Positions 1,725 through 19,186 of a stretch of DNA of 34,105 nucleotides are shown piece by piece (within the stretch, counting starts at the first letter, position 1; every line of letters begins with the position of its first letter). The stretch is from positions 1 to 34,105 of IMG/VR virus record IMGVR_UViG_3300032265_002238. The stretch is one strand, 5' to 3'. A program made the translations under genes and the position numbers. The notes beneath the pieces are model-generated. The model was not told the origin of the DNA and searched no databases. It was given only the letters and a program-made list of their open reading frames with translations. The DNA comes from a virus.

Positions 1725-1783
1725 GCAACGGCGTTTCACCACAACATCTAGTGGGTATTCCCACTCGTCATAACTAAATGTTG

Positions 1784-1789
1784 TATTAT
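1784..1789 (+). promoter_or_regulatory. -10 hexamer of a leaderless promoter
   Basis: TATTAT ends 7 nt before the GTG at 1797, and the intervening bases are C plus six T. No Shine-Dalgarno is possible there, so transcription probably starts at or next to the start codon. No clear -35 is seen. Confidence 0.5.
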
Positions 1790-1796
1790 CTTTTTT

Positions 1797-1997: not shown

Positions 1998-2389
1998 TGG
2001 TCTATGTCAACCCAAACTTTAACGGAAGCAACGACTACTTCCTGCCTGATGATGTAGTCCTCATTGACCATCACCTCGCTCTTGCAATGATGCCGCCAGC
2101 GTGGGCTGTCGAGGGGGCGTGTAGGGCGCCGAAGGCCGAAAACTTGCCGAAGTTTTTCCCCGAAAGCACAAAGCACGGTGGAAATCACCTAAAGCCAGCC
2201 CGTGAGTTGTGCTTGTCTTGCCCCGTTCGCTATGAGTGCCTCGAATACGGCATTGACGAGCCGTGGGGCGTTTGGGGCGGCCACTCGCCAAGCCAACGCC
2301 GCCGTATCAGTTCGCTAGTGAAAAATGGTAGTAGCCTATTGGAAGCAAGCCAAGCCATTGACGCACGGAGTAGGGATGCCAGAGGATAA
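1997..2389 (+). CDS. WhiB-like iron-sulfur transcription regulator
   Basis: 130 residues with the complete WhiB signature: C42, C72, C75 and C81 (C-x29-C-x2-C-x5-C) to hold a 4Fe-4S cluster, then the turn motif G91-V-W-G-G95 and a basic region (SQRRRISSLVKNG) for DNA contact. In this family the cluster-loaded form works with the primary sigma factor, and phage versions such as WhiB of mycobacteriophage TM4 can act dominantly over host WhiB proteins. The family is essentially restricted to Actinobacteria and their phages, so it is the best host clue in the window. It is joined to its upstream neighbour by TAATG and overlaps the portal gene by 14 nt, which puts a regulator inside a structural operon. 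An extra 40-residue N-terminus precedes the first Cys. Confidence 0.93.
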   Translation: MVYVNPNFNGSNDYFLPDDVVLIDHHLALAMMPPAWAVEGACRAPKAENLPKFFPESTKHGGNHLKPARELCLSCPVRYECLEYGIDEPWGVWGGHSPSQRRRISSLVKNGSSLLEASQAIDARSRDARG

Positions 2390-4004: not shown

Positions 4005-4114
4005 TGACCATCCGCATCCGCAAGGTGAAAGCATCGAAGCGAAAGGGCCGACCCGTGTTTAAGTCCAGCACGGGTGCGCCCGTTTCGTCACCCCCTCGCC
4101 CACAAGCCAAATAA
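4004..4114 (+). CDS. Very small basic protein (36 aa)
   Basis: GTG 4004 overlaps the portal stop (TAGTG) and the frame ends at TAA 4112-4114. The product is strongly basic at the N-terminus (IRIRKVKASKRKGRPVFKSS) and Pro-rich at the C-terminus. The coupled start and the even codon use favour a real gene, but 36 residues is short and I know no family. A nucleic-acid or portal-associated peptide is possible. It could also be non-functional read-on after the portal. Confidence 0.45.
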   Translation: MTIRIRKVKASKRKGRPVFKSSTGAPVSSPPRPQAK

Positions 4115-4122
4115 CTAAACGC

Positions 4123-4147
4123 AGTTTTGGAAAGCGTGGGGTAGCAT
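4123..4147 (+). promoter_or_regulatory. Promoter with AGTTTTGGAAA element and TAGCAT -10
   Basis: AGTTTTGGAAA (4123-4133) is followed after 8 nt by TAGCAT (4142-4147), 26 nt before the ATG at 4174. There is no -35 hexamer at the usual place, so the AGTTTTGGAAA element may replace it or bind a regulator. Related arrangements are at 851-873, 8514-8535 and 12024-12045. Confidence 0.45.
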
Positions 4148-4173
4148 AAATGTCAAAGCGTGAGGGGAACTAA

Positions 4174-5943
4174 ATGGAACAGATGAACATCATCTCTGCT
4201 GTCACCGACATCTCACTTGGTGATGCCGTGATGAACAAGTCATTGACCAGCGATGTGCGTGAAACCGCTGCCGAACTGTTGCAGAAGGGTTTCACCACCG
4301 CCGACTTGCTCGCCATCTCTGACGAGGAAGGCAACACTTCCCTCGTTGTCGTTCCCAACCAGCCCACCAAGAAGTCGTGGAACCCCTTTCGCCGTAGTGA
4401 AAACCTTTCGCCCGATGCCGAACGCCGTTTGATTTCTCGCAACATTGCTAAGGGTTTGGCAGACGAAGCCCACCCGTTCACCAAGAGCGTGAACGACTTC
4501 GGCGGCGTTCGCCCCTGCACCATCTGCGGCTCGACTTTGGAAAAGGCCGAGTGCGCCCCCCTTGACAAGGCGGTTGGCTTCCCCTTCACCTTCGCTATGT
4601 CTCCCGTTGCCCCTGATGAGCCAGAGGATGACAGTTCCGAGGACAGCACGACTGACGGTGCGGTGCAGGTGAAGTTAGACCCCGCAACTGTCGCTGCCAT
4701 CTTGCAGGCGGTTCAGGCTTCCAATGCTGATGATGACAGTTCCTCGTCATCCAGCGATGACAGCAGTTCGTCAAGTTCCTCGTCATCCTCTGATGACAGC
4801 AGTTCATCCTCCTCATCAAGTTCGAGCAGCAGTTCCTCATCAAGTTCGTCATCGTCATCCAGCAGCAGTTCCTCGTCATCCTCGTCTAGTGAAATGGATG
4901 ACGAGAGTTCGTCAAGCAGCAGTTCGAGCAGCAGTTCGTCTGCTGATGACACGGGCATCTTGGGCGAGAACTGGCAGGATGGACTTGACCCGTGGCAAAT
5001 CCAACTTGCTGAAAGCCTTGACCAGATGGTTGAGGGTATGGGTCGTATTCCGACCACCGATGCCGCTTACACGGATGTTTCACCATTTGCCGGCCAGAAC
5101 TGTGGCACTTGCATTGCTTCGGGCGATAACGGTTGCGACTGGGTTGCCATTTCCTGCACCCCTGAAGGCTGGTGCAAGTTTAATGTGACCCCCGTTCTCA
5201 TTCGTGCCGCTGGTGAAAACGAGCAGTATTACAAGTCTCGCAAGGCACCTGTCGAGCCGATGGATGACAACAGCGAGGACAGTTCCGAGTTGGCTGACGG
5301 TGAAATCCAAAAGGATGGCGAAGGCGCACCTGCTGCACCGGCACCGGCAAACTCTGGCCCGACTGTCGAAACCGTTCACCACGATGCCATTATGGGTTCG
5401 GTGGGCGTTCTGCCGAAGTTTGTTCCCGTTGACCTTGACATTATTGAGGATGAGGAACCCGAAGTTTTGGTTGCCGCCAAGTTTGCCGATGGTGAAATCC
5501 CCGGAACTATCCAAAAGAACGCCGAACAGCGATACACGCTCGGCCCTTGGTATGTTCCAAACCAGAAAGATGCTCACGGCGAGTGGACTGACCCAGAGGA
5601 ACTTCAGAAGGCTCTGTGGGGTTATGTCGAGAACGGTGACCGTGACATCCGACTTCAGCACAATGTGAACATCGTGGCTGGCAAGTGGGTCGAAGCAATG
5701 ATGTGGCCCCACGCAGTCGAAGTTCCGATGCTGAAGGCAGACACGAACGAAATCGTCAAGACCACTTTCCCTGCTGGAACTGCCTTCCTCGGCGTTCAGT
5801 GGGAACCGTGGGCGTGGGAACTCGTCAAGAAGGGCGAAATCCGAGGTTTCAGCATCGGCGGCACAGGCTCACCCATTGAGGTTGATTTGCCCACCGAGTT
5901 TGATGACCCCAACCACTTCCCCCTGCTCGGCGGTGAAAAGTAA
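4174..5943 (+). CDS. XkdF-like putative prohead protease with a long Ser/Asp tract and Cys cluster
   Basis: 589 residues. The C-terminal part (about 452-577) matches the XkdF-type putative phage serine protease pattern: YTLGPWYVPNQKDAHGEWT, then LQHNVNIVAGKWVEAM, then an FPAGTAFLGVQWEPWAWELV-like stretch and KKGEIRGFSIGG, the strongest family signature. Residues 186-259 are almost pure Ser with short Asp and Glu interruptions. Its Ser codons are mixed (TCC, TCG, TCA, AGT, AGC), so it is maintained as protein and is not a recent microsatellite. Residues 310-334 hold five Cys (310, 313, 321, 328, 334) in a pattern resembling high-potential iron-sulfur or zinc modules (C-x2-C ... GWC). In XkdF-type heads the protease trims head proteins during maturation. 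It has its own promoter (4123-4147) and SD (GAGGGG) and is coupled to the next gene by TAATG. The catalytic residues cannot be fixed by eye. Confidence 0.8.
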   Translation: MEQMNIISAVTDISLGDAVMNKSLTSDVRETAAELLQKGFTTADLLAISDEEGNTSLVVVPNQPTKKSWNPFRRSENLSPDAERRLISRNIAKGLADEAHPFTKSVNDFGGVRPCTICGSTLEKAECAPLDKAVGFPFTFAMSPVAPDEPEDDSSEDSTTDGAVQVKLDPATVAAILQAVQASNADDDSSSSSSDDSSSSSSSSSSDDSSSSSSSSSSSSSSSSSSSSSSSSSSSSSSSEMDDESSSSSSSSSSSSADDTGILGENWQDGLDPWQIQLAESLDQMVEGMGRIPTTDAAYTDVSPFAGQNCGTCIASGDNGCDWVAISCTPEGWCKFNVTPVLIRAAGENEQYYKSRKAPVEPMDDNSEDSSELADGEIQKDGEGAPAAPAPANSGPTVETVHHDAIMGSVGVLPKFVPVDLDIIEDEEPEVLVAAKFADGEIPGTIQKNAEQRYTLGPWYVPNQKDAHGEWTDPEELQKALWGYVENGDRDIRLQHNVNIVAGKWVEAMMWPHAVEVPMLKADTNEIVKTTFPAGTAFLGVQWEPWAWELVKKGEIRGFSIGGTGSPIEVDLPTEFDDPNHFPLLGGEK

Positions 5944-6233: not shown

Positions 6234-6281
6234 ATGAGTGACCCGACCTTTGTTATTGGCAGTTTTCCGAAAGGCTTCTAA
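6234..6281 (+). CDS. Possible 15-aa leader peptide coupled to the next gene
   Basis: ATG 6234, 15 codons, stop TAA overlapping the ATG of the next gene (TAATG at 6279-6283). It fills exactly the gap between two genes, and its last codons contain GAAAGG, which also serves as SD for 6281. It may only serve to couple translation. It is too short for coding statistics, so low confidence. Confidence 0.25.
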   Translation: MSDPTFVIGSFPKGF

Positions 6282-8506
6282 TGTCAGACATCAACAGTGA
6301 AATAGAAAAGTGGGTAGCAAAAGCGCTTACCCCCAACCAAGTGTTTGCCCCTAAACCAATGCCTGTTGACCTCTACTCGGACAACGATGCTGTTCGTGCT
6401 GCTCAACTTTTGGAAGCAAAGGCAGCAGTTTTGGTTGGTATGCACGAGGCTCGCACCTTTGATGGTCGAGAGCCGTTTACTTTGGATGATTACACCGCTT
6501 TTGCTGCCGCCCACAAGGACATTGCCGAAGGACACCGCCTTCTGGGTGAGGAACTGAAGGCAAACCGCCCCGATGCACTTCAGGCGATTTCAGCACACGG
6601 CGATGCAATGGCGTATCACAACGATGCTTCCAAACTTGCCGAGATGATGCAACCGAGCGAGGACTTGGGCGAACGCAACAAGATGTGGCCCCATATGGAA
6701 AGCAACTCGTTCCGCTTTGGTCGAACAGCACCGTGGGATACCGAGGAAAAGCAATGGCGTAAGGCTCACCAAGCCTTCCTCACTTCGCAACTCGCCGCCC
6801 AAAAGACAGCCTTTGACACGGGTGTAGTGGAAAAGGGAGATGTCGCTGGACACGCCTTTCACGGCAACCAGTACACCGGCCCATTTGGGGGTTCGGCTGT
6901 AAGTGGACTAGACCCGAAAGTGCTGCAATACGAAGGCAAAACTGTTCGTATGTCTATGCCAACCCCAAGCGGCGAACCCCACATTATTGAGGGTCGTATC
7001 CGCACGGGGATGATTTCCGTCACCCCACCTCGTACCGGCTTTTTCTCACCCGACACGCCACCCCAAGAACCGCAACACATCAAGGTTGCCTACTTGCAAA
7101 CCAAGTCATCCGATTACCAGAACACCAAACAGCCTATTTATCCCTCAATGAAAATAGATGCCGTTCGTGTCGGTAGTAAGTGGCAAAACATCCAAAAGGC
7201 CACTAGTGAAATCCAAAAGGGTGACACCCCCGGACACCCCTTCCACGGAAACCAATGGACTACGGGGCAACTTGCCGCAGCAAACAACGAAGTAAGGCGC
7301 TTGCAGAACGATGCTTACAATAGTGACAGTCTGGATGGGTACGACAACATTGTTGACAAGCACGCACAAATCGCAGATGCCCATCGTGCGCTTGCTGCAC
7401 AGGCACGAGCAGAAGGCCGACCCTCGGATGCAAAGGTTCACGAACGAGCCGCCTTCCGACACGATGAAGCGGCAGAGCAGAACCTCTTTCTCCACGGTTC
7501 TGTTTTTAACGACTTTGGGAGGGCAAAGCAGGCAACTGACGATGCCGTTAATGCATCGCTAGATGCTCTGCCACTTGTAAAGTCTGTTAGTGAAATAACG
7601 AAGGGTGACTTACCCGGACATCCGTTCCGAGGAAACCAGTACACATCTTTGGGTGAAAAGGCTTCAGACCTTGCCAAAGCCGTAAAGAAACTTAATAGTC
7701 GCTCAACACCCGACGAAATCCGTAGCCTTGCCAAAGTCCACGAGCAAGTTGCTAACCAGCACTTTGCGGTATCTCGTCAAAGTGCTGAAATGCGCCATCT
7801 GACTGACCCTTCCGAGGTTGGACAAAAGACATACGACAACCTTGTTTCCACATCCGCAGTTGAGGGCGATAAGCACTTGGATGCTGGATACAGACACAAT
7901 GACACCGCAGACAAACTGTATTACGCCGCCGAACTGAAGGAACAAGGTTCACCATCTGCCTCATCTAGTGTCCTTGCCAACGCCAAGATTTCCTCGGCAA
8001 ATGCCGCCGATGCCAGCAAAGAAGCCGCTTCATCAGGTGTTCATTGGCCCGTAGGCGACCCAGAGTTTGCCCAACACGAGGAAGCCGTTGCTTTGGGCAA
8101 GTCTGCTGAAATCATCCAAAAGGGCGATGTGGTAGGTCACGTATTCCACGGCAACCAGTACAAGGGTGGCACTTCATCCATCCCCGACAATGTTGGACAC
8201 CGTGACTTTGACCCAAACACCACCTTGTCGCAAATCGGCAAGATGAACATCTTGGCTGTGAGTGGTGGAAAAGTCCACTCTATTCACGACACCGATGGCA
8301 AGGCTATCGGTGTGGAACTCCCTGTTTCCAGCGGCTACAAGGTGCGAGTGTTCCTGCGAGATGACGATACCTACACCGTTCAGCGTGTCCACCGTGACAA
8401 TGTGAAGGGCGAGGAAACGGGCGTGTTTGCCGACCAAGTTGGTGAAAGTGTATATCAAGCAGGTATGTACAAGTCAAACCCCTTCGGTGGACACCAGCCC
8501 CGATAA
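6281..8506 (+). CDS. Modular cargo-like protein with four GHxFxGNQ units
   Basis: 741 residues. An N-terminal amphipathic helix (MSDINSEIEKWVAKAL) resembles the start of three or four proteins downstream. Four KGD-x-x-GHxFxGNQ units begin near residues 185, 313, 441 and 614 and divide the protein into blocks: a helical block with several His (1-180), a beta block (200-305), two His/Ala-rich helical blocks (327-430 and 455-600; for example HAQIADAHRALAAQA and VHERAAFRHDEAAEQN), and a C-terminal domain from about 648 (TLSQIGKMNILAVSGG ... GYKVRVFL ... DTYTVQRVHRDNVKGE). That last domain is familiar from many actinophage proteins but has no function known to me. No enzyme motif is seen. From its place behind the head protease and the shared modules I infer a virion-packaged or head-associated protein. 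Confidence 0.85.
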   Translation: MSDINSEIEKWVAKALTPNQVFAPKPMPVDLYSDNDAVRAAQLLEAKAAVLVGMHEARTFDGREPFTLDDYTAFAAAHKDIAEGHRLLGEELKANRPDALQAISAHGDAMAYHNDASKLAEMMQPSEDLGERNKMWPHMESNSFRFGRTAPWDTEEKQWRKAHQAFLTSQLAAQKTAFDTGVVEKGDVAGHAFHGNQYTGPFGGSAVSGLDPKVLQYEGKTVRMSMPTPSGEPHIIEGRIRTGMISVTPPRTGFFSPDTPPQEPQHIKVAYLQTKSSDYQNTKQPIYPSMKIDAVRVGSKWQNIQKATSEIQKGDTPGHPFHGNQWTTGQLAAANNEVRRLQNDAYNSDSLDGYDNIVDKHAQIADAHRALAAQARAEGRPSDAKVHERAAFRHDEAAEQNLFLHGSVFNDFGRAKQATDDAVNASLDALPLVKSVSEITKGDLPGHPFRGNQYTSLGEKASDLAKAVKKLNSRSTPDEIRSLAKVHEQVANQHFAVSRQSAEMRHLTDPSEVGQKTYDNLVSTSAVEGDKHLDAGYRHNDTADKLYYAAELKEQGSPSASSSVLANAKISSANAADASKEAASSGVHWPVGDPEFAQHEEAVALGKSAEIIQKGDVVGHVFHGNQYKGGTSSIPDNVGHRDFDPNTTLSQIGKMNILAVSGGKVHSIHDTDGKAIGVELPVSSGYKVRVFLRDDDTYTVQRVHRDNVKGEETGVFADQVGESVYQAGMYKSNPFGGHQPR

Positions 8507-8513
8507 ACCAAGA

Positions 8514-8541
8514 TTTAGAAATAATGGGATAGCATTATCCC
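8514..8541 (+). promoter_or_regulatory. Promoter with TAGCAT -10 inside a small inverted repeat
   Basis: TAGCAT (8530-8535) lies 32 nt before the ATG at 8568. TTTAGAAA (8514-8521), a weak relative of the boundary element, lies 8 nt upstream. GGGATA (8526-8531) and TATCCC (8536-8541) form a 6-bp inverted repeat around GCAT, so the -10 itself is palindromic and could be an operator. Confidence 0.4.
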
Positions 8542-8567
8542 CGTAAGCCCCTAGAAAGGTAAGTCCT

Positions 8568-9371
8568 ATGTCAGACATCAACGCCGAAGTGACCGAGTGG
8601 GTCGTTAACTTTTGGAAGCAGGCCGAGCCTGTCGCTAGTGAAATCGAGGCTGACGAGGCTGACATCGAAAAGGGCGGTCGAGGTTCGGGTGAACATCAAG
8701 GACACCCTTTCCGTGGAAACCGCTACACCAGCGGCGTTCAGTCTGCTAATCACCACGAAGTGCGCCCCGGCACGGAACACTACGGTCACGCACAGCACTT
8801 GACCGCCGCATCAGCACACATTGCTGCGGGTCGTGCGGCAATGGCACACGGCGAGTTTGGCATTGCCCACTCGCACTTTAACGAAGCCGCCTACCACGCT
8901 TCGCAGGCTTCGAGCCAAATCGTTCACGGTGCTGGAAACCGTGAGATGGGCCACCACGCCGAACTCCTTTACCACGCTGCCCACCACGCTGGCGATGCCG
9001 CTGAAAAGGCTTCCTACCTGACGAACCAGCATCAGGATGCTATCCGTTCGGGTCGTGGCACGACTGTCGTGACCCGTGAGCAGTTGCTTGACACCTCGGC
9101 TGGTCAGGCCGTTCCCTCAACGAACAATGTTGGTAATATTGCAAGTTATTCGCCCCTTATCCCCGGTGCATCGGCAAGTGACCGTATTCTCACCACCGAG
9201 GAACTTGGCAACGCTGCCGCTGGCGCTCGTGCCAACGCTGAAGCCCAGAGCAACATCCTCGCTGCCGCCGACAACGCCGTGAACTCGGCTCGTGGTCTTT
9301 ACGCCCCCGCCACTATTGGTAGTAGCACGGGTCGTTCATATGGTAGTGGTCAAATCGCTTCTGGTCAATAG
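8568..9371 (+). CDS. His-rich helical cargo-like protein with one GNQ unit
   Basis: 267 residues, ATG after AGAAAGG. The N-terminus (MSDINAEVTEWVVNFWKQ) repeats the helix of gene 6281. One long-form GNQ unit (residues 35-53, KGGRGSGEHQGHPFRGNRY) follows. Residues 58-155 are a striking His/Ala helical block with about sixteen His in 100 residues (EHYGHAQHLTAASAHI, HGEFGIAHSHFNEAAYHA, HHAELLYHAAHHAGDAAEKA). The remainder is Ala/Asn/Ser-rich and partly helical. The His spacing (i, i+3/i+4) would put many imidazoles on one helix face, which suggests metal or polyanion binding; that is inference. It is encoded directly upstream of dps. Confidence 0.8.
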   Translation: MSDINAEVTEWVVNFWKQAEPVASEIEADEADIEKGGRGSGEHQGHPFRGNRYTSGVQSANHHEVRPGTEHYGHAQHLTAASAHIAAGRAAMAHGEFGIAHSHFNEAAYHASQASSQIVHGAGNREMGHHAELLYHAAHHAGDAAEKASYLTNQHQDAIRSGRGTTVVTREQLLDTSAGQAVPSTNNVGNIASYSPLIPGASASDRILTTEELGNAAAGARANAEAQSNILAAADNAVNSARGLYAPATIGSSTGRSYGSGQIASGQ

Positions 9372-9380
9372 TTTTCACTA

Positions 9381-9839
9381 ATGAAGGTCACGAAGGAAAC
9401 CAATAGTGCATTATCGGCGGCGTTAGCGACCTGTCTCGCCAATGCCACGATTATGTATCACCGTGTTCACGGTTTCCATTGGAACATTGTCGGCCCTGAC
9501 TTTCCTCAATGGCACAGCAAGTTTGAGGAAATCTACGATGATGTCTATGGCTCGCTTGACCCCCTTGCTGAAAACATCCGCAAGATAAGTGGCGTAGCCC
9601 CGTTCCGTTTGTCGGACTTGGCTATCCGTGCGACTGTTGCTGATGACAATGTGGGTGACTACTCTCCCCAAACCCTTATCAGCAGTCTGTTGGCCACGAA
9701 CTACGGCGTTCTTGACAGCCTGAACAATGCGTTCCAAATGGCTAATAGTGCAAATCAGCAGGGTATTGCCAACTTCCTCGCAGAGCGTATTGACGCTCAC
9801 CAAAAGTGGAACTGGCAACTTTCAGTCTCTAGGGGTTAA
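9381..9839 (+). CDS. dps: Dps / ferritin-like DNA-protection protein
   Basis: 152 residues, the normal Dps length. The four-helix ferritin-like fold is recognisable from YHRVHGFHWNIVGPDF and WHSKFEEIYDDVYGSLDPLA, then ENIRKI. By alignment to E. coli Dps (H51, H63, D67, D78, E82), the ferroxidase ligands here are H33, H45, E49, D60 and E64, so iron binding and oxidation look intact. Dps proteins form 12-mers that store iron, detoxify peroxide and condense DNA. The gene starts 10 nt after the previous stop, lies between two GNQ-module genes, and has no GNQ unit itself. A phage dps inside a presumed virion-cargo cluster suggests protection or condensation of the packaged or incoming genome. That role is inference; the family call is firm. 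Confidence 0.93.
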   Translation: MKVTKETNSALSAALATCLANATIMYHRVHGFHWNIVGPDFPQWHSKFEEIYDDVYGSLDPLAENIRKISGVAPFRLSDLAIRATVADDNVGDYSPQTLISSLLATNYGVLDSLNNAFQMANSANQQGIANFLAERIDAHQKWNWQLSVSRG

Positions 9840-9841
9840 GT

Positions 9842-10855
9842 ATGTCAAATCTTGATGCTGAAATCGTTGCTTGGATTTCCAAAGCACTAGTCGTAAAGGG
9901 CGGTCAAGGTTCGGGCGCACAGCCCGGTCACGCCTTTAATGGCAACCAATGGACTTCTGCTTCTGGTGGAAAGCGCGAACAGGCTTTTGCTGGCGAGGGT
10001 GCAACCCCGTTCTCTGGCAACCAGTACCCCAAGCCCAACTGGGGTGACAAAAACCTCACGCCGAAGTCGCTGGCAAATGTCAAGGTCAACGAAGGTGAAA
10101 CCAAGACCGCCGCACAGATTATGGAAGCGGTCACTCGCTACGCTGATGCCCACCCCGACACGATGCAGGGCTACTCCGACAAGGCCAGCCACGAGAAGTT
10201 TATTGCTGAACACGAGGATGCTATTCCAAAGTGGCTCTCCGACAGGGTGACCCAGAAGGATGTGGATGTCCTAGAGGACAACAACTACCACACGGCAAAC
10301 ACCGTCATCGCTGACCGCCGCCCCGACTTGGGTGGTTGGAATAGCCAAAAGGCTCTCGCACAGTGGGACAAATACAAGTCCGTTAGTGAAATCGCCAAGG
10401 GAGACAGTCCGGGTCATCCGTTCAGGGGAAACCAATACGCCCAAGCACCCGCTAGTGCGACAGACAACCTGAAAATGGTCAGGGGTCGTGCTGTTATTGA
10501 CGAACCTGCGGTTCAGGCGAACATTGACCACTTTACGCAGGTCGCACAAGAACACACTAACCAAGCCAACCAACACGCCGAAGCCGTTGCTGAACTTCAG
10601 GCTCGCATTGCCGAACACGAACGGGCTGGACAAATCCACCTTGATGCGGCAGGACTAGCACGACAAGTTGCTGATGACGAGCGTGAACTTAGCGACCCCG
10701 AAGGCGCCACCGATTTTCTATCTAGTCTGCCAAAGGGCGTAAGCCCCCTCATCGGTGAGGCATCTAATGGTTATACCTACGCAGAAAATCGCCAAAACTC
10801 TATCGCTGCTTCAGAAGCGGCACGACAAGCCACCGAAAGGGCCAACAGACTATGA
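9842..10855 (+). CDS. Modular cargo-like protein with three GNQ units
   Basis: 337 residues, starting 3 nt after the dps stop. The N-terminus MSNLDAEIVAWISKAL is the shared amphipathic helix, followed at once by a long-form unit (residues 19-37, KGGQGSGAQPGHAFNGNQW), a degenerate unit (51-62, ATPFSGNQY) and, at 186-199, the canonical KGDSPGHPFRGNQY. Between the second and third units lies a compact helical block (QIMEAVTRYADAHPD ... EKFIAEHEDAIPKWLSDRV) that I do not recognise. After the last unit comes a His/Ala coiled block (IDHFTQVAQEHTNQANQHAE, ARIAEHERAGQIHLDAAGLA). Its stop overlaps the next start (ATGA). No enzymatic motif is visible, and function is unknown. Confidence 0.82.
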   Translation: MSNLDAEIVAWISKALVVKGGQGSGAQPGHAFNGNQWTSASGGKREQAFAGEGATPFSGNQYPKPNWGDKNLTPKSLANVKVNEGETKTAAQIMEAVTRYADAHPDTMQGYSDKASHEKFIAEHEDAIPKWLSDRVTQKDVDVLEDNNYHTANTVIADRRPDLGGWNSQKALAQWDKYKSVSEIAKGDSPGHPFRGNQYAQAPASATDNLKMVRGRAVIDEPAVQANIDHFTQVAQEHTNQANQHAEAVAELQARIAEHERAGQIHLDAAGLARQVADDERELSDPEGATDFLSSLPKGVSPLIGEASNGYTYAENRQNSIAASEAARQATERANRL

Positions 10856-12012
10856 CCAACCCTTTTTCACTAGCCAGCCTTGCCCCCACTTGGGTCAAGG
10901 CAACCGCCATCCTGAAGGGCGATACGCCGGGGCATCCGTTTCGTGGCAACCAATACGCCAGCGCACATTCGCTTTCCGACAAGGCAACTAACCTGAACAA
11001 CAAGGTTCAACAGGGAACCGACGATTACGCTACTGGTCCCTATCAGGTCACATCGTTCCACGCCGAGGTCGCTGACGAACACCGTGGCATTGCCGAGCAG
11101 CACCGAGCCAGCATTGGTGCGCTGAAGCAGGAAGCGCAGAAGGCACAGGATGAAGGCAAGCCGATTTTGGCTAGTCACATCGTTAGTGAAATGCAAGCGC
11201 ACGCAGACGCGGCGCGAGCGCACGAGGAAGCCGCTGACAGCCACGAGAAAGTTGTTGACCTCGCTCTCAACCCCCGTGCTGGTGACTGGTCACGGCAAGA
11301 GGATGAAGCCACCCACGCTACGAAACTTGCTGATTTGGCTTCAGGACAGGCAGCACAGGCCGAGTTTAAGACGAACTCGCTTCCCCAGACCCAAGGTAGC
11401 CGTACTGTCTCAATGCCCAACGCCAACGGTAATCCCACGCTGGTTGCCAATGTTGAGCGCCACAGCATCTTTGATAAGTCTGCTGAAATCACGAAGGGTG
11501 ACCTGCCGGGACACGACTTTCACGGCAACCAATGGCAAGTTGTTGGAGTAAGTAGTCGCAAAAACGAAAACACCCTTCACGGCCCACGCCACGCTGCTGT
11601 CCTCGCTACTGCCCTCGCACAGCGCGTTCGGGCAAATGACAACAATACGCCAGCGTTTGATAAGAATGTGCTTGCTTGGCGCGAACAGCACCAAAAACTT
11701 GCCGAGTACCACGCCCGCCGTGCGAGCGAAATGCGAGCAAAGGCAGACACCGCTTGGAAACAACACCGCAATGCAGATGATGAGGAAGTTTCCAGCATCA
11801 AGCACGACAAGGCGGCACAAGCCCACCTTGATGCGGCAAGGACTATGAAAAACGCAATGGCTGGCGCTCCGGGGTTTGTTTCACCAGCCTCACAAGCCGC
11901 CGCCGAAGCCAGCCGTGCCGCTTTGGAAAGTGATGTCGCAGCAACTTCCATCTTGGGTCGCAACGGCGCTTGGGGTAAGGGTGTTGTAAACCGAGCCAAG
12001 TACGGTGATTAG
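10852..12012 (+). CDS. Modular His/Ala-helical protein with two GNQ units
   Basis: 386 residues, coupled to the previous gene by a 4-nt ATGA overlap. The short N-terminus (MTNPFSLASLAPTWVKATA) keeps only the W-V-K-A end of the shared helix. GNQ units lie at residues 22-35 and 215-228, and each is followed by a His/Ala-rich helical block: HAEVADEHRGIAEQHRASIG and MQAHADAARAHEEAADSHEK after the first, WREQHQKLAEYHARRASEMR and KHDKAAQAHLDAARTMKNAM after the second. The two halves therefore look like an internal duplication of [unit + His/Ala helix bundle]. No catalytic motif, membrane segment or signal peptide is seen. Confidence 0.82.
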   Translation: MTNPFSLASLAPTWVKATAILKGDTPGHPFRGNQYASAHSLSDKATNLNNKVQQGTDDYATGPYQVTSFHAEVADEHRGIAEQHRASIGALKQEAQKAQDEGKPILASHIVSEMQAHADAARAHEEAADSHEKVVDLALNPRAGDWSRQEDEATHATKLADLASGQAAQAEFKTNSLPQTQGSRTVSMPNANGNPTLVANVERHSIFDKSAEITKGDLPGHDFHGNQWQVVGVSSRKNENTLHGPRHAAVLATALAQRVRANDNNTPAFDKNVLAWREQHQKLAEYHARRASEMRAKADTAWKQHRNADDEEVSSIKHDKAAQAHLDAARTMKNAMAGAPGFVSPASQAAAEASRAALESDVAATSILGRNGAWGKGVVNRAKYGD

Positions 12013-12023
12013 CAGTACAAGTA

Positions 12024-12045
12024 TTTCCAAATAACGGTGTAGCAT
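12024..12045 (+). promoter_or_regulatory. Promoter with TTTCCAAA element and TAGCAT -10
   Basis: TTTCCAAA (12024-12031) and, 8 nt later, TAGCAT (12040-12045), 28 nt before the ATG at 12074, which has GAAAGG as SD. The spacing matches the 4123-4147 promoter. There is no standard -35. Confidence 0.42.
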
Positions 12046-12073
12046 TTCACCAGAACCCGAAAGGATTAGCCAG

Positions 12074-13549
12074 ATGATTAAAGTTCCCAGCACTAACCCA
12101 ACGACTGTCTCCTTCGTGCAGAAGGGTGTGGACAAGAACGCAGGTCGCATTGCTTCCGAGCAAATCACCAAGGCTGCGACTGCCGAAGTTGTGGCTCGCA
12201 CCGAGTTTGAGAACGCCAACTACCGCCTGACGAAGGCTACCGAGGCTCTTTCGGCTAGTGAAATCGCTTACCAAGAGGCTGTCGCTAAGTCCTCGTGGAA
12301 CAAAGAAACCGTTCGTGCCGCTTACAACAACACTCTGGTTGGCTTCCGTGAGGCTGACCGCAATGCTGAAATCGCCGCCGAGAAGTTTGCGAAGGCTAAG
12401 GCTGCTTTGGCTGGACTTCGTGAAGTCGCTAAGGCAGAAATCAGCAACGGCGAGGAACTGAAGGCGGCTGTCAAGAACGCCAAGACCCCGGCTGACCGCA
12501 AGGCTTGCGTTGATGCAGCCGAGCGCCTGAAGTTGGTGTTTTTCTTGCCAAAGGGCTGGAAGGCTGAAGCCGACAAGATGCAAAAGGCAGTTGACCGTGC
12601 ATCGTTGCTTGATGCTGAAAAGCAGGCTCTGGCTGTCAAGGACACCGACCCTGCAAAGGCGATGGAAATCCTGAACAACATTGCTGACCAATACGCAGTC
12701 GAGGCTGGCAAGGCTCGTGAAGCCGGTGACATCCCTCGTCACAGCGCCCTCGCTCTTGAAGGTGGTCGTGTGCGTGGTTTGGCTACCCAAATCCGTCAGG
12801 AAGGCTTTGACAACAAGTATCCCGTGCAGGACATCAAGGACATCCCTAACCTGCCGTTTGCCAACACCAATAAGTCCATCCGAAAGGAAGTTGTAATGCC
12901 CGATGCAAAGATTTTGGTTATCTGCCCCTCTTGTGGTGGTGATGACAACGATGCCCCCTCTTGCCCGATGTGTGGCGGTTCGATGCTCGTTTCACCGCAG
13001 ACCGCAAACGCGGCGTGGGATGACAGTTCCGACAGTTCGGATGACGGTTCCGCACCCGGTATGCAGTTCACCACGAAGGCTCTGCTCACCCGTGACTTTG
13101 AGAAGTCGTTTGGCTTCCAAAACTACATTTTCAGTAAGGGTGGCCCCGGTTCGGGCGAGCATCCCGGACACCCCTTCCGTGGCAACCAGCACACGGGCGG
13201 TATCAAGGTCAATGGTCGCTACATCCACGAGCGTGAAGGCCACAAGGTCACCACGGCTCGCTACAACGAGGGTGTGAAGGCTCACGAGACTGCCGCCGAA
13301 GCAATGAAGGCTATCGCTCGTGGTCACGAAAGTCAGGGTCGCTACGCTAAGGCAGCCGAGGCTATGCGCGCCGCCTCCGACCATCACAAGATGGCGGCTG
13401 GCTTCCACGAGGGTCTTTCTGGCATCCACGAGCGTGTTCACGGCGATGCAGTTGCTCACGACACAGAGCGTGGTCTTGCTGCCCAGCAGCGTGTTTACCA
13501 GACCCGTGCGAGCGCCGAGGCAGACCGCCTCTCCGCGCTGGCTGCGTAG
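12074..13549 (+). CDS. Coiled-coil / zinc-ribbon protein with one GNQ unit and His/Ala tail
   Basis: 491 residues. The N-terminal 270 residues form a long Ala/Lys/Glu coiled coil (ATAEVVARTEFENANYRLTK, then EAALSAS-type heptads). A zinc ribbon follows, C284-P-S-C287 ... C297-P-M-C300, then a short acidic Ser/Asp stretch (DDSSDSSDDGS) reminiscent of the tract in the head protease. A long-form GNQ unit at 355-373 (KGGPGSGEHPGHPFRGNQH) leads into a C-terminal His/Ala helical block (VKAHETAAEAMKAIARGHES, ASDHHKMAAGFHEGLSGIHE). It has its own promoter with a TAGCAT -10. Only the last 140 residues resemble its GNQ relatives, so it looks like a fusion. Function unknown; a scaffold-like or DNA-binding internal head protein is possible. 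Confidence 0.82.
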   Translation: MIKVPSTNPTTVSFVQKGVDKNAGRIASEQITKAATAEVVARTEFENANYRLTKATEALSASEIAYQEAVAKSSWNKETVRAAYNNTLVGFREADRNAEIAAEKFAKAKAALAGLREVAKAEISNGEELKAAVKNAKTPADRKACVDAAERLKLVFFLPKGWKAEADKMQKAVDRASLLDAEKQALAVKDTDPAKAMEILNNIADQYAVEAGKAREAGDIPRHSALALEGGRVRGLATQIRQEGFDNKYPVQDIKDIPNLPFANTNKSIRKEVVMPDAKILVICPSCGGDDNDAPSCPMCGGSMLVSPQTANAAWDDSSDSSDDGSAPGMQFTTKALLTRDFEKSFGFQNYIFSKGGPGSGEHPGHPFRGNQHTGGIKVNGRYIHEREGHKVTTARYNEGVKAHETAAEAMKAIARGHESQGRYAKAAEAMRAASDHHKMAAGFHEGLSGIHERVHGDAVAHDTERGLAAQQRVYQTRASAEADRLSALAA

Positions 13550-13566
13550 TTTCCAAAACTCGCCAC

Positions 13567-13616
13567 TAGCCGCCACTACTGAAATCCCGAAGTCTGGGGT
13601 AAAGTAGTGGCGGTTA
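13567..13616 (+). promoter_or_regulatory. Long inverted repeat overlapping a possible -10
   Basis: CCGCCACTACT (13570-13580) and AGTAGTGGCGG (13603-13613) are perfect 11-bp arms; with flanking bases the stem is 14 bp with one G-U pair and a 22-nt loop. TAAAGT (13600-13605), a possible -10 for the gene at 13639, sits at the base of the right arm. The left arm is preceded by another CGCCACTA (13561-13568), a direct repeat. It could be a terminator without a U-tract, or an operator. Confidence 0.5.
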
Positions 13617-13638
13617 GTCATATTTGAGGGGTCAACCA

Positions 13639-14238
13639 ATGCGTAATCCATTTGAGGCAGAAGCACTTGCGAGTGAGTTGTCACAATGGGTCGCAAAGGC
13701 TCGTCAGGTGGAAATCCACAAGGCTGGCAACGCACAGGGTCTTATTGACTGGTACAACAACGGTGCTGATGGGCAAATCCAATGGGGTAGCGAGGGTGAC
13801 TTTGATGCCTGTGTCGCTATTGCTGGAAAATACCTTGACAACCCGCAGGGTTTCTGTCAACTTCGCCACATAGATGCAACAGGTGGGCCTGCTGGAAAAG
13901 CCCCCGGCGAAATCCAAAAGGGCGACAAACCCGGTCATCCTTTTCACGGAAATCAGCACGTCAAGGTTGACGAGGGGGGGCAACCCGTAGCGGTCAAGAT
14001 GACCCGTGTAGCACCCGGCTACTACACGCACAACGACCTTGCTGGAAACACTTGGCGCATTGAGCAAGTGCAAGGCCGTGACGACCGTGGCTACGGGAAC
14101 GAAAACGGCAAGTGGCAAGCCACGACAACTGGCGGAGAACACCTGCTTGAAGCACCGGCAGACACATTGAGCGAAATGCGTGACGCTCTATTGGAACACA
14201 ACCAAAGACTTGCCGAAAGAACTAATGATGGAAGTTAG
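13639..14238 (+). CDS. GNQ-module protein with a conserved actinophage domain
   Basis: 199 residues from ATG 13639 (SD GAGGGG, 7 nt away); an in-frame TTG at 13624 is less likely. The first helix (EAEALASELSQWVAKARQVE) resembles the shared N-terminal helix. Residues about 32-80 (GLIDWYNNGADGQIQWGSEG, then FDACVAIAGKYLDNPQGFCQ and LRHIDATG) form a domain I know from many actinophage structural-region proteins, without a defined function. The GNQ unit is at 94-107. The C-terminal 90 residues are mixed beta/alpha with APGYYTHNDLAGNTWRIEQV. It overlaps the next gene by 14 nt. The domain context suggests the same virion-associated set; no enzyme residues are evident. Confidence 0.8.
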   Translation: MRNPFEAEALASELSQWVAKARQVEIHKAGNAQGLIDWYNNGADGQIQWGSEGDFDACVAIAGKYLDNPQGFCQLRHIDATGGPAGKAPGEIQKGDKPGHPFHGNQHVKVDEGGQPVAVKMTRVAPGYYTHNDLAGNTWRIEQVQGRDDRGYGNENGKWQATTTGGEHLLEAPADTLSEMRDALLEHNQRLAERTNDGS

Positions 14239-14425
14239 CGACTTTTTCAGCGACAACCTCGCCCCCAAGACCACCAAGACTTTGGAAGCCGAGAAACTGA
14301 CGAAGGCAGTCAAGACCGGCTCGTGGGATTTCAGCACTAATGGGCTTCTGAAGGTAGCCGTTCCTGTGGCAGTCAAGCGTGTCAGGGATTTGGACTTCAG
14401 CACGAACGCCCTGCTCTCGGAGTAG
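14225..14425 (+). CDS. Small protein with a duplicated DFSTN motif
   Basis: 66 residues from ATG 14225, which overlaps the previous gene by 14 nt; the longer frame at 14180 would lie wholly inside that gene. The sequence holds two near-identical nonapeptides, WDFSTNGLL and LDFSTNALL, about 25 residues apart, with different codons. Lys and Thr are frequent in the N-terminal half (KTTKTLEAEKLTKAVKTG). The next gene begins 3 nt after its stop. I do not recognise a family. It may be a small partner of the large protein that follows. Confidence 0.65.
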   Translation: MMEVSDFFSDNLAPKTTKTLEAEKLTKAVKTGSWDFSTNGLLKVAVPVAVKRVRDLDFSTNALLSE

Positions 14426-14428
14426 GCA

Positions 14429-17400
14429 ATGTTCCAACCCAACTTCGTCACTTTCACCAGCACCGACATCACGGGTCGTGAGCCGTTAGACGGTCAGACC
14501 TTTAAGGGCAACCAGAACGATGGCTTCGTTTTCGTGCGGTTTGCTGATGGCTCTGGCGGTTTGGAAAAGGAGATGAAGGACTGGGTTGGCAACAAGACAG
14601 GTCGGCTCTACCGTGCTGAAATCCTTGCTGCACAAGAGTATCTGGCAGCCCAAGTCGGCAAGGCGATGAACGCCCCCGTTCGTGACTGCTATTTCACTAG
14701 CCCCACAACGGTCATTATGCCCTTCATCTTTGGAACGCCCGGAGACAAGGCCAGCGAAACTTCTTTGCCACAGAACGCACAAGGAACAGCACTCCAACTG
14801 TTTGACTACTTGGTTGCCAACGCAGACCGCCGCCCGAAAAACTGGATAATCACCTCGGACAACCGCATTGTGGGTATTGACCACGCCCTCTGCAACTTCC
14901 GACCTCGCTTCCCCGACCCCGACTTCGTTGCTGAAATGTGGAACAACGGCGTGTCGCTGGACAGTTTGACAATGCTGCGCCCGAAGTTGGCTGCCCTCGT
15001 TTTGGATTTCACCTCACTAGGGATGGGTGACAAGCACGAAAACTTGATGGCAAACTTTGACCGCCTGCTCAACGGTTTCCAAGTCCTTGACCAAGTGGCG
15101 GTGGTGATTAAGGATGCCCTTACGCCCCCGAAGGGTGTTCAGGAAACCGCCCAACGAGCATTGGCGTGGATTAAGGATGGCAAGGCTGGCTCTGGTTTCA
15201 CCCCTGTGGGTCGTAAACGAGCCTCTGACCTTGCTAACGCCCACCCCGTGTCTCTTGACACGCTGAAGCGTATGAAGGCGTATTTTGACCGCCACCAGCC
15301 CGACCAGAAGGCCGAAGGATTTCAGCAGGGCGAAAAAGGCTACCCCTCACCGGGTCGTGTGGCGTGGGATGCGTGGGGTGGCGATGCAGGTTGGTCGTGG
15401 GCAAAGTCTGTGGTGGAACGCAATGTGGAGAAGGAAGCCGCAGGACACGAGTTTCACGGTAATCAGCACACCGGCTCAAAAGGCAGTAGTGCGCCCCCTC
15501 GTCAGTCTGACCCCAACCGCAACCAAGTGTCGGCAGACCGTAATAAAGTTCCAGCAGACCGCAACCAAGTCGCAAGTGCCTCAACAGATGACCAGCCGAA
15601 GGCAGATGCCGGTGGTGATACCAAAAAGATATGGGCGCAGGAACAGGCGCAACAAATCCTTGATGGCAAGATGCCCGTTATTCCACCAGACCAACTTCTT
15701 GACTTTTTCCGTCAAGTCAAAGACCTACCAAAAGAGTTTCAGGAAGCGGATGCTACTGAAATCAACACGGAAACGGCTGGCCCTCGCGGCCCCCTGCTTG
15801 GCGATGAAGGCGTAGGCGGTGGTGTTTCACGCACCGAGATGCCCCAACTCAATGGTGATGAACAGAAGCGAGAGTTCATCAAGGAGTTAGAGGAAAAGAT
15901 GGGGGTCAAGACCACCGAGGAACGGGTTGACCCGACCACTCTTTCCCCCTACCAAAAGGAAATGGTTGCTGGAAAGATAGGCAACCTTGTCTCACAAAAT
16001 CCCACCGGCATCCCCGACAGTCAGCGCATCATCGTGTCAAGCGACAACATTGTTATTGACGGTCACCACAACTGGGCTGCTGGCGTTGCTCTCCACGAAG
16101 GTTTGGATAGCAGACCACTTCTGCCGATTTTCCGTGTGAATATGACCGCCGCCGAACTTATTCCACTAGCAACCAAGTTTGGCGATGAACACGGCAACGA
16201 GCGCAAGGGGATGACAAACAAATCTGTCGAGGTGGTGGAAAAGAACGCCAAGAAAGCCGTTGCCACGATTTTGCACGGCATCTCCCTGCACATCCACCGA
16301 CACCTCAAAAAGCAGGCAACAGCACCCGTTCCTCGCTACGAAGGCACTTCCTACGAAAACCCCGTTCCAAAGCACGATGAGCAGTCGTGGGGCAACTTGG
16401 GTGAAGGGCAGACAATGCCCCAGAGCCACGCTGAAACGGGCGATGCCCTAGCCAGCCACGCCTTTGACCTCTGGCGTAAACAGCAGTATCAAAGTGCCGG
16501 TTTCGCACACGAGGATGCCGCAAGTTCCTACCGCCGAGCAGCCAAAATCACCTCTGACCCGCACGAACGAGCCTCGCTCGAAAGCAAGGCACAAGCGCAA
16601 GACAACGAAGCCAAAGCCGCCCACTTCACGCACGAGATGGGTGAGGCACACTCGCCTACTGAAATCTACAAAGGGGATGTTCAGGGGCATCCATTTCACG
16701 GGAACCAATACGAGAGTGGTGAAGGCGGCTGGAAGCCTGTAATGACTTCAGCCGAGGCAATGGAGTGGGCAAAAAACTCTGCCATCCAAGTTCCCCTGTA
16801 TCACGGCACGAATAGGCCAGACAGCATTATGTCCGAAGGCTTTCGGGATAACACGGGTGGTGGAAACCTCATCAACGGCACTTGGCTGAACGACTTTGAC
16901 CCCCGACAGAGCGAAAACGAAGTGCACTGGGGACAACACACTCTCACGGTGATGGCAAATGTCAAATCAGTTGCTACCCCCGAACAGACAAAGGCAATAC
17001 ACATCAAGGTTGAGGAACTGATTTGGGGAACCCAAGACCGCAAAATCAACCCCGGCGATGAAGCACGGAAAATCGCTCTAGAGCAAGGGTTTGATGCACT
17101 TCAGCCAAGCAAGGGCGTTTACATTGTTCTCAACCCCAAAAACCTGACGGTTGTTTCCGATGAGGTGAAAAAGGGCGAAGCGGCTGGACATCCCTTTCGG
17201 GGCAACCAATGGACAACGGGGCAGGATAGTGAAATGCCCGACAATGTGGCGGCGTTCGCTCGAAACCTGAAAGAGTTCTACGGTGCTGGTGGAAAAGTAG
17301 AGCGCATTGACAACCCCGACAAGATGCACGAAACCTACGAGCAAGCACTCCAACTCCAAAAGACCCCCGAATACAAAAATGGGGATACTCGACACAAGCA

Positions 17401-19186
17401 GGGCATCCGTTTTCTAGCAGAAGCGGCATTAGAAGCAAAAATCGCACACGGCCAAACAAAGGATGGGCTTTACAGTCTCACCGGCTCGCACCTATTTGTC
17501 GCTCGTGACAAAGACGGACAAATGGTATCCGCTATCAACATTTCCACCTTTTCTGGTGGTCTGACTTCCGGCTACAAACTAGATGGCCCCGAAGTTCCCC
17601 ACGCTGAAATCGGTTATCTTGGCTCTACGGGAACAATGCCCGGTGCGGCAACAGCACTTATGGAACAGGCTCTCCAACTTGCTTCCGACAAGGGGCTAAC
17701 AGTCACCTACACAACTACATCTGACAGCCAGCCCTATCACGATATGTTGGGTGTGCAGGAACTGAACTACCGAGGATTACGAGGTTTTTCACCAGAAAGT
17801 GCAGCAGAGGTAGCGGCACTTCCAAATCCGAAGCCAACCATCATTAAGTCGTTCCTGAACTTGTTTATCACCAAAGGAGATGTAGCGGGTCACGCCTTTC
17901 ACGGAAACCAATACGAGCAGGTAGCGAGTTCGGGTAAGACAACTTCACCTCGCAAGCCACGAGCCAAGACCCCGACCATCGCCGGTCTGCCAAAGGGCTG
18001 GAAACTGAAGTCGAAGGATGGAAGCCGCGTTGTCCTGACATCCAAAAACGGGAACACCGCCATCTTTGCCACTCGCAGCCGAGGTTGGAAGCCTACTGAA
18101 AAGTATTCCCAGATGGTCTTGGCTACCTGCGAGAAGTTTACTTCGGGCAAGACCATCAACTTCGTTGCTGAAGCCAATGTCGGCAGCAACTCTCTTGCTT
18201 ATGTCAACCGCGCCAAGCCAGATATCATCGGTATGGGGCGTTATTCCAGCGTTCTCCAAACCCTTGACCACCAGCGCAGCGAGTTTGAGAAGCAGGTCAC
18301 CAATAACGCCCTTGTCGGCACAGACTTGTCGTTGGCGTTGATGGGGATGGCCAAGGGTTCACCAGAACGGGAAGCCCTTATTGACAAGATGGGGGCAATA
18401 TACGACAGCCAGCCACGCACCGAAGCAATGGTGCAGGGCATCAGCCACTCCTACGCTTCGTATGTCACCCCCGAAAAAATCATCGAAACGATGTTTAACC
18501 ACGAACTTGGTCACTCGGACTTCTTTGGCGAGGGTCACAAGATTAGTGAAATCTACCCCGCCCTGACCGAAGCAGCGAAGGCAACTTTGGATGCCTCAAG
18601 GCAGGCAGGTGGCAGCCGACCTGTCTCGCTGGCAAGTTTCACCGCCCCCGAAATCTGGGCGCAAACCCAACTGCAAGCCGCACAGGATTTGGCGACCAAT
18701 ACTTCATCTCGCTACTCCGGCTTTGATGTGGGCAACGGCGTAATCGTGCCTCGTGGTGATTATGTGGACTACGAAATGAAGCAGCAAACGGGAAGCCTTG
18801 TGCTGCGAAGCACCCCTCAGTCCATCTTGCAGAGTATTGGAGTGACCCAATACGGCTCGACCAAACTTCAGGAAACCGTTGCTGAAGCACGGGCGTTTTA
18901 CTCATCGCCCGAACTGCCGAAGTCTGCCCTGACAAACCGTATTGCTGAAATACTTGGTTGGAACAAAACGGCCAAGTCTGTTAGCATCCCCTTCGTGAAG
19001 TCCGAGGATGACAGCGTTCCCCCATCAAGCGACAATGTATATCAGGATGCCAACGGGAACACCATCGCTCGCATCTTTGATGTCGTTGACACTTCGGGCA
19101 ACGGGGCTATCACCATCGTGGGCGAGCAAGTCATCCTGTCTGATGGCTCGGTGGTCAGCCTCAATGACTACAACGCCACGCACTAG
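14429..19186 (+). CDS. Giant mosaic polyvalent-type protein: kinase, ParB-like, ART-like, GNAT-like and zincin domains
   Basis: 1585 residues. Domains in order: (1) 1-230, PI3/4-kinase or HipA-like kinase, with LEKEMKDW and YRAEILAAQEYLA in the N-lobe, catalytic D126-Y-L-V-A-N131-A-D133-R-R-P-K-N138-W and metal motif I150-D151-H; (2) 233-329, a helical domain frequent in actinophages (GVQETAQRALAWIKDGKAGS ... SPGRVAWDAWGGDAG); (3) 500-600, ParB/sulfiredoxin-like, with SPYQKEMVAGKIG and VIDGHHNWAAG (541-552); (4) 771-909, ADP-ribosyltransferase-like, with LYHGTNRP (about 790), GTWLNDF and GVYIVLNPKNLTVV; (5) 932-1130, GNAT-like, with IGYLGSTGTMPGAATALMEQ then YHDMLG; (6) 1165-1585, zincin with H1358-E-L-G-H1362. 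GNQ units near 21 (degenerate), 335, 748, 915 and 1149 mark the borders; a short ADRNQV/ADRNKV repeat lies at 365-383. The architecture fits the phage polyvalent proteins described by Aravind and colleagues, thought to enter the host with DNA and act on defences. Activities are predicted, not shown. Confidence 0.88.
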   Translation: MFQPNFVTFTSTDITGREPLDGQTFKGNQNDGFVFVRFADGSGGLEKEMKDWVGNKTGRLYRAEILAAQEYLAAQVGKAMNAPVRDCYFTSPTTVIMPFIFGTPGDKASETSLPQNAQGTALQLFDYLVANADRRPKNWIITSDNRIVGIDHALCNFRPRFPDPDFVAEMWNNGVSLDSLTMLRPKLAALVLDFTSLGMGDKHENLMANFDRLLNGFQVLDQVAVVIKDALTPPKGVQETAQRALAWIKDGKAGSGFTPVGRKRASDLANAHPVSLDTLKRMKAYFDRHQPDQKAEGFQQGEKGYPSPGRVAWDAWGGDAGWSWAKSVVERNVEKEAAGHEFHGNQHTGSKGSSAPPRQSDPNRNQVSADRNKVPADRNQVASASTDDQPKADAGGDTKKIWAQEQAQQILDGKMPVIPPDQLLDFFRQVKDLPKEFQEADATEINTETAGPRGPLLGDEGVGGGVSRTEMPQLNGDEQKREFIKELEEKMGVKTTEERVDPTTLSPYQKEMVAGKIGNLVSQNPTGIPDSQRIIVSSDNIVIDGHHNWAAGVALHEGLDSRPLLPIFRVNMTAAELIPLATKFGDEHGNERKGMTNKSVEVVEKNAKKAVATILHGISLHIHRHLKKQATAPVPRYEGTSYENPVPKHDEQSWGNLGEGQTMPQSHAETGDALASHAFDLWRKQQYQSAGFAHEDAASSYRRAAKITSDPHERASLESKAQAQDNEAKAAHFTHEMGEAHSPTEIYKGDVQGHPFHGNQYESGEGGWKPVMTSAEAMEWAKNSAIQVPLYHGTNRPDSIMSEGFRDNTGGGNLINGTWLNDFDPRQSENEVHWGQHTLTVMANVKSVATPEQTKAIHIKVEELIWGTQDRKINPGDEARKIALEQGFDALQPSKGVYIVLNPKNLTVVSDEVKKGEAAGHPFRGNQWTTGQDSEMPDNVAAFARNLKEFYGAGGKVERIDNPDKMHETYEQALQLQKTPEYKNGDTRHKQGIRFLAEAALEAKIAHGQTKDGLYSLTGSHLFVARDKDGQMVSAINISTFSGGLTSGYKLDGPEVPHAEIGYLGSTGTMPGAATALMEQALQLASDKGLTVTYTTTSDSQPYHDMLGVQELNYRGLRGFSPESAAEVAALPNPKPTIIKSFLNLFITKGDVAGHAFHGNQYEQVASSGKTTSPRKPRAKTPTIAGLPKGWKLKSKDGSRVVLTSKNGNTAIFATRSRGWKPTEKYSQMVLATCEKFTSGKTINFVAEANVGSNSLAYVNRAKPDIIGMGRYSSVLQTLDHQRSEFEKQVTNNALVGTDLSLALMGMAKGSPEREALIDKMGAIYDSQPRTEAMVQGISHSYASYVTPEKIIETMFNHELGHSDFFGEGHKISEIYPALTEAAKATLDASRQAGGSRPVSLASFTAPEIWAQTQLQAAQDLATNTSSRYSGFDVGNGVIVPRGDYVDYEMKQQTGSLVLRSTPQSILQSIGVTQYGSTKLQETVAEARAFYSSPELPKSALTNRIAEILGWNKTAKSVSIPFVKSEDDSVPPSSDNVYQDANGNTIARIFDVVDTSGNGAITIVGEQVILSDGSVVSLNDYNATH

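Follow-up and report, generated by a model that had tools for sequence, protein, structure and literature searches.

A short peptide unit with the core GHxFxGNQ, which recurs in seven genes of the window (the whole stretch of 34,105 bases analysed here, a fragment of an uncultivated actinophage-like virus that carries a WhiB gene), is, as judged from sequence, a widespread mobile module. The unit is likely to be a cargo signal in the wide sense, acting in loading, in release or in both. As the best explanation, to which we give about an even chance, we propose that the unit is a signal for in-head proteins, which marks the starts of cargo modules and probably also provides sites of cutting or release. 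That cutting at or beside the unit is part of the mechanism of such a cargo signal seems nearly as probable. This reading is based on the distribution and placement of the unit, the leaders shared among its proteins, the loss and splitting of unit-bounded cassettes and the position of the unit outside the neighbouring fold; the steps that we infer are that the proteins enter the head, that a head component recognises the unit and that the chain is cut.

The genes of the window run in the order SSB, WhiB, Mu-type portal, XkdF-type protease, a 95-aa gene and the unit genes, followed on the 3' side by a transglycosylase-like gene, three DNA methylases, a PD-(D/E)XK nuclease and a capsid-E-like major capsid protein (at 29160). 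The earlier note had placed the unit genes between the head protease and the lysis genes, with an XkdF-like protease just upstream, and this arrangement was confirmed. The XkdF-type head protease (4174..5943, + strand; Peptidase_S78_2 at residues 447-568) matches PF14550 with an E-value of 2.7e-14 as well as PHROG head maturation protease families, and the lysis side is represented by the transglycosylase-like gene beginning at 19404, a weak match (E 0.0005). The window protease contains zero units and has a long Ser/Asp-rich tract at approximately residues 180-255. A stretch resembling xEIPGTIxKDAExRYTLGPWYVP is kept just ahead of the XkdF protease domain (relatives L154, L156 and L157). The families phrog_14859 and phrog_1530 match the same domain of the window protein though named 'RNA ligase' and 'DNA methyltransferase', names that are probably artefacts derived from fusions. 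Between the lysis gene and the nuclease, three consecutive DNA methylase genes (one C5, two of N6/N4 type) occupy positions 20469-24859.

The strict pattern GHxFxGN[QR] occurs 15 times in seven window genes, whereas in 2000 residue shuffles of those proteins it appeared 0.0005 times on average and never more than once. All seven genes and their units lie on the + strand. The first gene (6281..8506) encodes a 741-aa protein with no known domain and four strict copies, namely unit 1 (KGDVAGHAFHGNQ, 6833..6871), unit 2 (KGDTPGHPFHGNQ, 7217..7255), unit 3 (KGDLPGHPFRGNQ, 7601..7639) and unit 4 (KGDVVGHVFHGNQ, 8120..8158). The 267-aa protein (8568..9371) begins with the leader MSDINAEVTEWV and has one copy, unit 5, of the GSG form (KGGRGSGEHQGHPFRGNR, 8670..8723); some of its homologues carry the unit and some do not. 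A 337-aa protein (9842..10855; leader MSNLDAEIVAWISKAL) contains two strict copies, unit 6 of the GSG form (KGGQGSGAQPGHAFNGNQ, 9896..9949) and unit 8 (KGDSPGHPFRGNQ, 10397..10435), together with the degenerate unit 7, GATPFSGNQ, read from the translation (9998..10024). The 386-aa protein (10852..12012; leader MTNPFSLASLAPTWVKATAIL) has two copies, unit 9 (KGDTPGHPFRGNQ, 10915..10953) and unit 10 (KGDLPGHDFHGNQ, 11494..11532), and the 491-aa protein (12074..13549) has one, unit 11 of the GSG form (KGGPGSGEHPGHPFRGNQ, 13136..13189), ahead of a short C-terminal domain. The 204-aa protein (13624..14238), of which the N-terminal part stands alone as a 98-aa ORF in the relative L283, also has one, unit 12 (KGDKPGHPFHGNQ, 13918..13956). 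The last gene (14429..19186) encodes a 1585-aa polyvalent protein with four strict copies, unit 14 (EKEAAGHEFHGNQ, 15428..15466), unit 15 (KGDVQGHPFHGNQ, 16670..16708), unit 16 (KGEAAGHPFRGNQ, 17171..17209) and unit 17 (KGDVAGHAFHGNQ, 17873..17911), and the degenerate unit 13, GQTFKGNQ (14492..14515). The two degenerate copies, which are probable true units, raise the count to the 17 in seven genes reported earlier, and the extent given for them was correct, the first KGD lying at 6833 and the last GNQ ending at 17911. At the conserved unit residues of the window copies, codon identity is 99% at positions 1 and 2 and 47% at position 3. Because the third positions have diverged, the copies are not recent DNA repeats, and since positions 1 and 2 are kept, selection acts on the unit peptide, as had been claimed from the differing codons. 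DNA-level repetition as the source of the units was thus ruled out.

The 1585-aa protein is built from a kinase-like domain (residues 1-225, weak family match), a phrog_2859-type region (226-335), a ParB-like part (345-600, by motif, read by eye), an ART-like part (763-915, by motif only, read by eye), a GNAT (930-1145, fold match) and a zincin-like HELGH domain (1170-1520, by motif, read by eye). Relatives of the ART-like domain were not found in our search, and it gave no alignment outside the unit with the Pfam-confirmed ART of L070; therefore the ART label is a motif-level guess. Comparison with L283, which lies in a 108.7-kb contig, revealed 68% identity between window residues 1-767 and the first ORF of L283. 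The ART-like cassette (window residues 768-911) is missing from L283, the gap falling exactly between units 15 and 16, which form its left and right borders, and the homology resumes at residue 912, just ahead of unit 16. The metalloprotease-like part (window residues 1147-1585) is a separate ORF in L283, its match beginning exactly at ITKGD of unit 17, with the leader MNLTKYYEWGFDEPLFPRDGS ahead of the unit (leader start read from the ORF by eye). L283 also encodes, at 658-4404, another ART-like domain (by motif) behind the GNAT unit, in the place that the metalloprotease-like part takes up in the window, as if one effector had been exchanged for another at a unit border.

An AlphaFold model of window residues 899-1170 (unit-GNAT-unit) showed a GNAT core with pLDDT mostly of 85-96, and its Foldseek matches were GNAT-fold acetyltransferases. 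Both units had pLDDT of about 35-57 and were each drawn as a tiny two-strand turn. Burial of the unit in a single fold, which the earlier note had named as evidence against its proposal, was not seen in this one model: since both units are of low confidence and lie outside the confident core, the unit is not buried in the GNAT region.

A degenerate DNA pattern for the unit core matched at least 118 stretches of the viral collection. The resulting set holds at least 260 distinct units after removal of near-duplicates, nearly all from viral contigs, and includes a few chance matches that came from scanning cellular genomes. These genomes are nearly all uncultivated fragments, and the contigs are not independent. 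Large contigs have up to 25 units, most of which share one strand and lie in a main cluster. As controls, 120 stretches around an arbitrary pattern contained zero units, and a reversed pattern gave zero matches in large unit contigs. When genomes of bacteria and archaea (257 Gb) were scanned with a slightly longer pattern, it matched 14 times in total. About five of these matches resemble genuine units and probably sit in prophages (Ideonella, Rhodocyclaceae, Comamonadaceae, a Verrucomicrobia MAG and Akkermansia). The unit residues G, H, F, G and N were fixed by the search pattern and are 100% by construction, and the first pattern was also biased to P/A and R/H at variable positions. Outside the pattern, among the matches listed (260 units), G is found at -4 in 92%, D or E at -3 in 93%, Y/W at +8 in 82%, T at +9 in 52% and G at +11 in 56%.

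A tblastn search of the unit against cultured phages gave no match, which for so short and low-complexity a query is weak evidence of absence. The unit was also absent from the stretches examined of Arthrobacter phages Waltz and Ottawa, Microbacterium phage ValentiniPuff, Actinomycetia phage DSL-LC01, Roseobacter phage CRP-811 and Mycobacterium phage prophi79-1, which were reached via portal or protein similarity and some of which share the portal type, and from two further phage records, so that these searches yielded no cultured phage bearing the unit. In the literature we found no phage paper containing the unit peptide strings, and neither there nor in Pfam, NCBIfam or PHROG a description of the unit; these libraries hold no family specific to it, one phrog_2859 match spanning a unit inside a longer match, and no meaningful PDB chain was found.

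The placement of the unit is consistent with a cargo signal. Among the matches listed (260 units), 82 are found in the first 60 aa of their proteins, 171 in the interior and 7 near the C-terminus, some of these seven being only cut by contig or locus ends. Most of the families recognised among unit proteins are those of head proteins or of toxin-like effectors. In MuF proteins the unit starts 13-37 aa after the MuF domain (MuF end to unit start 297 to 310 in L070, 285 to 307 in L041, 284 to 321 in L028 and 204 to 226 in L013). It likewise follows the Mu-type portal in L008, L083, L134 and L138, another portal family in L024, and XkdF in L009, L071, L080 and L112, and by alignment in L045. Directly beyond the unit lies an ADP-ribosyltransferase in L070 (MuF-unit-ART), a PBECR3 nuclease in L138 (portal-unit-PBECR3) and a ParB-like domain in L009 (XkdF-unit-ParB-like). 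The Mu-I-type match of L003 (53-243) overlaps the unit at 202 and leaves no clean border. With the units masked, 28-30% of homology-block ends fall within 25 aa of a unit, compared with 9-11% for random sites under equal masking and 15% if positions are spread uniformly, an enrichment of about 2.7-fold that is not universal. In 48 aligned protein pairs, one member has the unit at its N-terminus and the other has it internally, ahead of the same downstream block. The claim that the unit is always at a domain border is thus borne out by most testable cases, the word 'always' having been an inference of the earlier note. In the window and its large relatives, the unit clusters lie directly behind the portal and protease.

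Proteins with an N-terminal unit share their leaders within a contig. The leader identity was 31% within the same contig, 11% between contigs and 7% after shuffling, and the same-contig proteins with common leaders have unrelated bodies. For instance, five proteins of L019 begin with variants of MSGFTTNELLYPLTKGD. The T4 protease has the consensus LxE/IxE, and the unit differs from the T4 signal in that such sites are not enriched beside it, [LI]xE being found within 22 aa upstream of 13.3% of units versus 14.3% of random windows. In SPN3US, propeptides of 20-24 residues are cut from head proteins (PMC10052503), and a cleavage motif of this type was not enriched beside the unit either. The motif [SAT]E[IVL] was enriched twofold beside the unit (16% versus 7.5%). 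'SEIxKGD' as a cleavage signature common with XkdF stayed a weak lead, most units lacking [SAT]E[IVL].

Based on these features, we propose that the start of each cargo module would be marked by a unit. In stand-alone cargo proteins, a short N-terminal leader followed by the unit would act like a capsid-targeting propeptide. In fusions, the unit would separate a head-anchored part (portal, MuF or protease) from the cargo, or one cargo domain from another. In the prohead, the chain would probably be cut or released at the units, and the pieces would be ejected singly.

Two known signals may be functional analogues of the unit, likened by function and not by sequence kinship. As described in PMC9958956 and PMC9024508, the capsid-targeting sequence (CTS) of T4 IPII and IPIII is an N-terminal signal of about 10 aa on head cargo, which can also load foreign proteins. 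Similar to the unit leaders, it is a short N-terminal signal common to otherwise unrelated proteins of one phage, whereas the unit also occurs between polyprotein domains and after portal, MuF and protease domains. In P1, a reporter is sent to the capsid by the first 30 residues of DarB, a large antirestriction protein, which compares with the proposed role of the unit as an N-terminal signal for head cargo; however, it is a single signal at one N-terminus, and the available part of the source mentions no repeated internal copies (PMC9024508). The polyvalent proteins described in PMC5512222 overlap with the unit proteins in their domains (ART, PBECR, ParB, zincin, MuF and portal fusions) and in their position beside head genes. 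The 1585-aa protein agrees with this description, combining kinase-like, ParB-like, GNAT and zincin-like parts in one chain behind portal and protease, of which the GNAT alone was assigned by fold match. Term searches found no short border module in the text of that source, whereas in the unit phages a defined peptide marks both domain borders and stand-alone cargo genes. The MuF polymorphic toxins consist of a MuF domain followed by a toxin domain (PMC5576092). Similarly, the unit of L070 lies exactly between MuF and an ART-PolyVal domain, but the words motif, linker and cleavage are absent from that source, and the unit is not restricted to MuF proteins.

We consider it rather unlikely that the unit is a docking tag only, a small hairpin binding a head component (scaffold, portal or inner shell) on proteins that stay uncut. 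Docking only is favoured because the conserved core, of 15 or more residues, exceeds the usual length of a protease site, because five proteins start with MGDxPGHPFRGNQ or similar, with the unit directly after Met and no leader to remove, and because several head-protease types accompany one unit. These features and the few units at the very C-terminus also argue against our best explanation, and the C-terminal units, like the two-strand turn predicted in both modelled copies, agree with a docking hairpin. Further points against our explanation are the lack of enrichment of T4-type and SPN3US-type cleavage motifs beside the unit, the phrog_2859 match across a unit, the failure to find the unit in cultured phages, including relatives of the same portal type, and the fact that block ends near units are enriched but not universal. 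However, for docking only, a tag would be superfluous on the portal, MuF and protease fusions, which belong to the head in any case; a single chain with as many as eight GNQ units (L392) has more than loading needs; and the splitting into separate genes occurs at units. Cutting is favoured because portal-fused effectors could hardly be ejected otherwise, because fused and split forms interchange at units, and because the unit is also found in protease chains.

The earlier note had tied the unit to the XkdF protease, as a site cut specifically by it. In 50 unit contigs, XkdF was over threshold in 19, a Mu-I-type protease in 6, a DUF2213 protein in 5 and the HK97-type S78 in 0, and XkdF, Mu-I-type and DUF2213 did not overlap. 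Among 50 random viral contigs, a few of which are shorter than 18 kb, XkdF was found in 0, S78 in 7 and the Mu-type portal in 0. The Fisher p-value for XkdF is 5e-7, a value that ignores kinship and near-duplicate contigs. In addition, units lie within XkdF chains behind the protease domain and adjoin XkdF in relatives, as does the unit cluster of G102, of which G024, seemingly without XkdF, appears to be a truncated relative. Nevertheless, a site specific to XkdF is improbable. The Mu-type portal was matched in 22 of the 50 unit contigs, and all of these have XkdF or a Mu-I-type protease, never both, so that the XkdF association may reflect lineage; other unit contigs have DUF2213. In contigs with the sister unit described below, XkdF is over threshold in only 2 of 50. 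Because Mu-I-type or DUF2213 proteins take its place in other unit phages, XkdF is not a necessary partner; on the present sequence comparisons, the unit goes with the head-assembly setting and not with XkdF as such. A model of XkdF-unit-ParB, asking whether the unit docks in the protease, had a pLDDT of 40.

More improbable still is that the unit is a self-cutting element, or a substrate of the zincin-like domains in some polyvalent proteins. The 1585-aa protein has the HELGH motif, and Iyer et al. 2017 proposed that such metallopeptidases release the domains of polyvalent proteins (PMC5512222). However, among the loci compared, only five other ORFs had relatives of the zincin-like domain, and in L283 the zincin-like part is a separate gene that itself bears a unit. 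A unit that binds no partner, serving as a passive flexible linker or as a DNA element that favours the shuffling of domains, would suit the glycine-rich composition, the low model confidence and the location at shuffling borders, but is very unlikely given that the peptide is kept at diverged third codon positions, that the conserved His, Phe, Asn and Gln are not needed for flexibility, and that N-terminal units come with shared leaders.

A sister unit, GGxGSGNxGHxGRPGxxGGS, is also widespread in the viral collection (loci L300-L417). Among the matches listed, 89 are N-terminal and 101 internal, and the proteins match ART, portal, MuF, DUF2213, Zeta toxin, PBECR3, Ntox50 and GNAT. GNQ and GRPG units occur in one chain in L385 and L392, and a hybrid form, KGGxGSG...GHxFxGN[QR], present three times in the window, links the two types. 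A tblastn search of the sister unit against cultured phages found nothing, again weak evidence of absence for a short and low-complexity query, and the literature apparently holds no description of it. We tentatively suggest, with more doubt than belief, that GNQ and GRPG are variants of one transplantable cargo code across phage lineages that differ in portal and head protease, which would load effectors into the head and release single pieces. If so, cargo genes could be freely swapped, fused and split as long as each keeps its unit. If the cargo-signal reading is right, one searchable peptide would predict which uncharacterised phage proteins travel in the head and enter bacteria at infection. 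The unit would then give a way to study the effectors that phages direct at the defences and metabolism of their hosts, as well as the division of large multi-domain phage proteins, and would suggest a transferable signal by which proteins could be loaded into phage heads.

Within the unit cluster of the window lies a Dps/ferritin-like gene without a unit (9381..9839, + strand; PF00210, E 3e-15). Its homologues in the relatives L295, L299, L117, L093, L062, L058 and L076 are likewise unit-free, and where visible they adjoin homologues of the 267-aa unit gene. The product might be a head protein that protects the packaged DNA.
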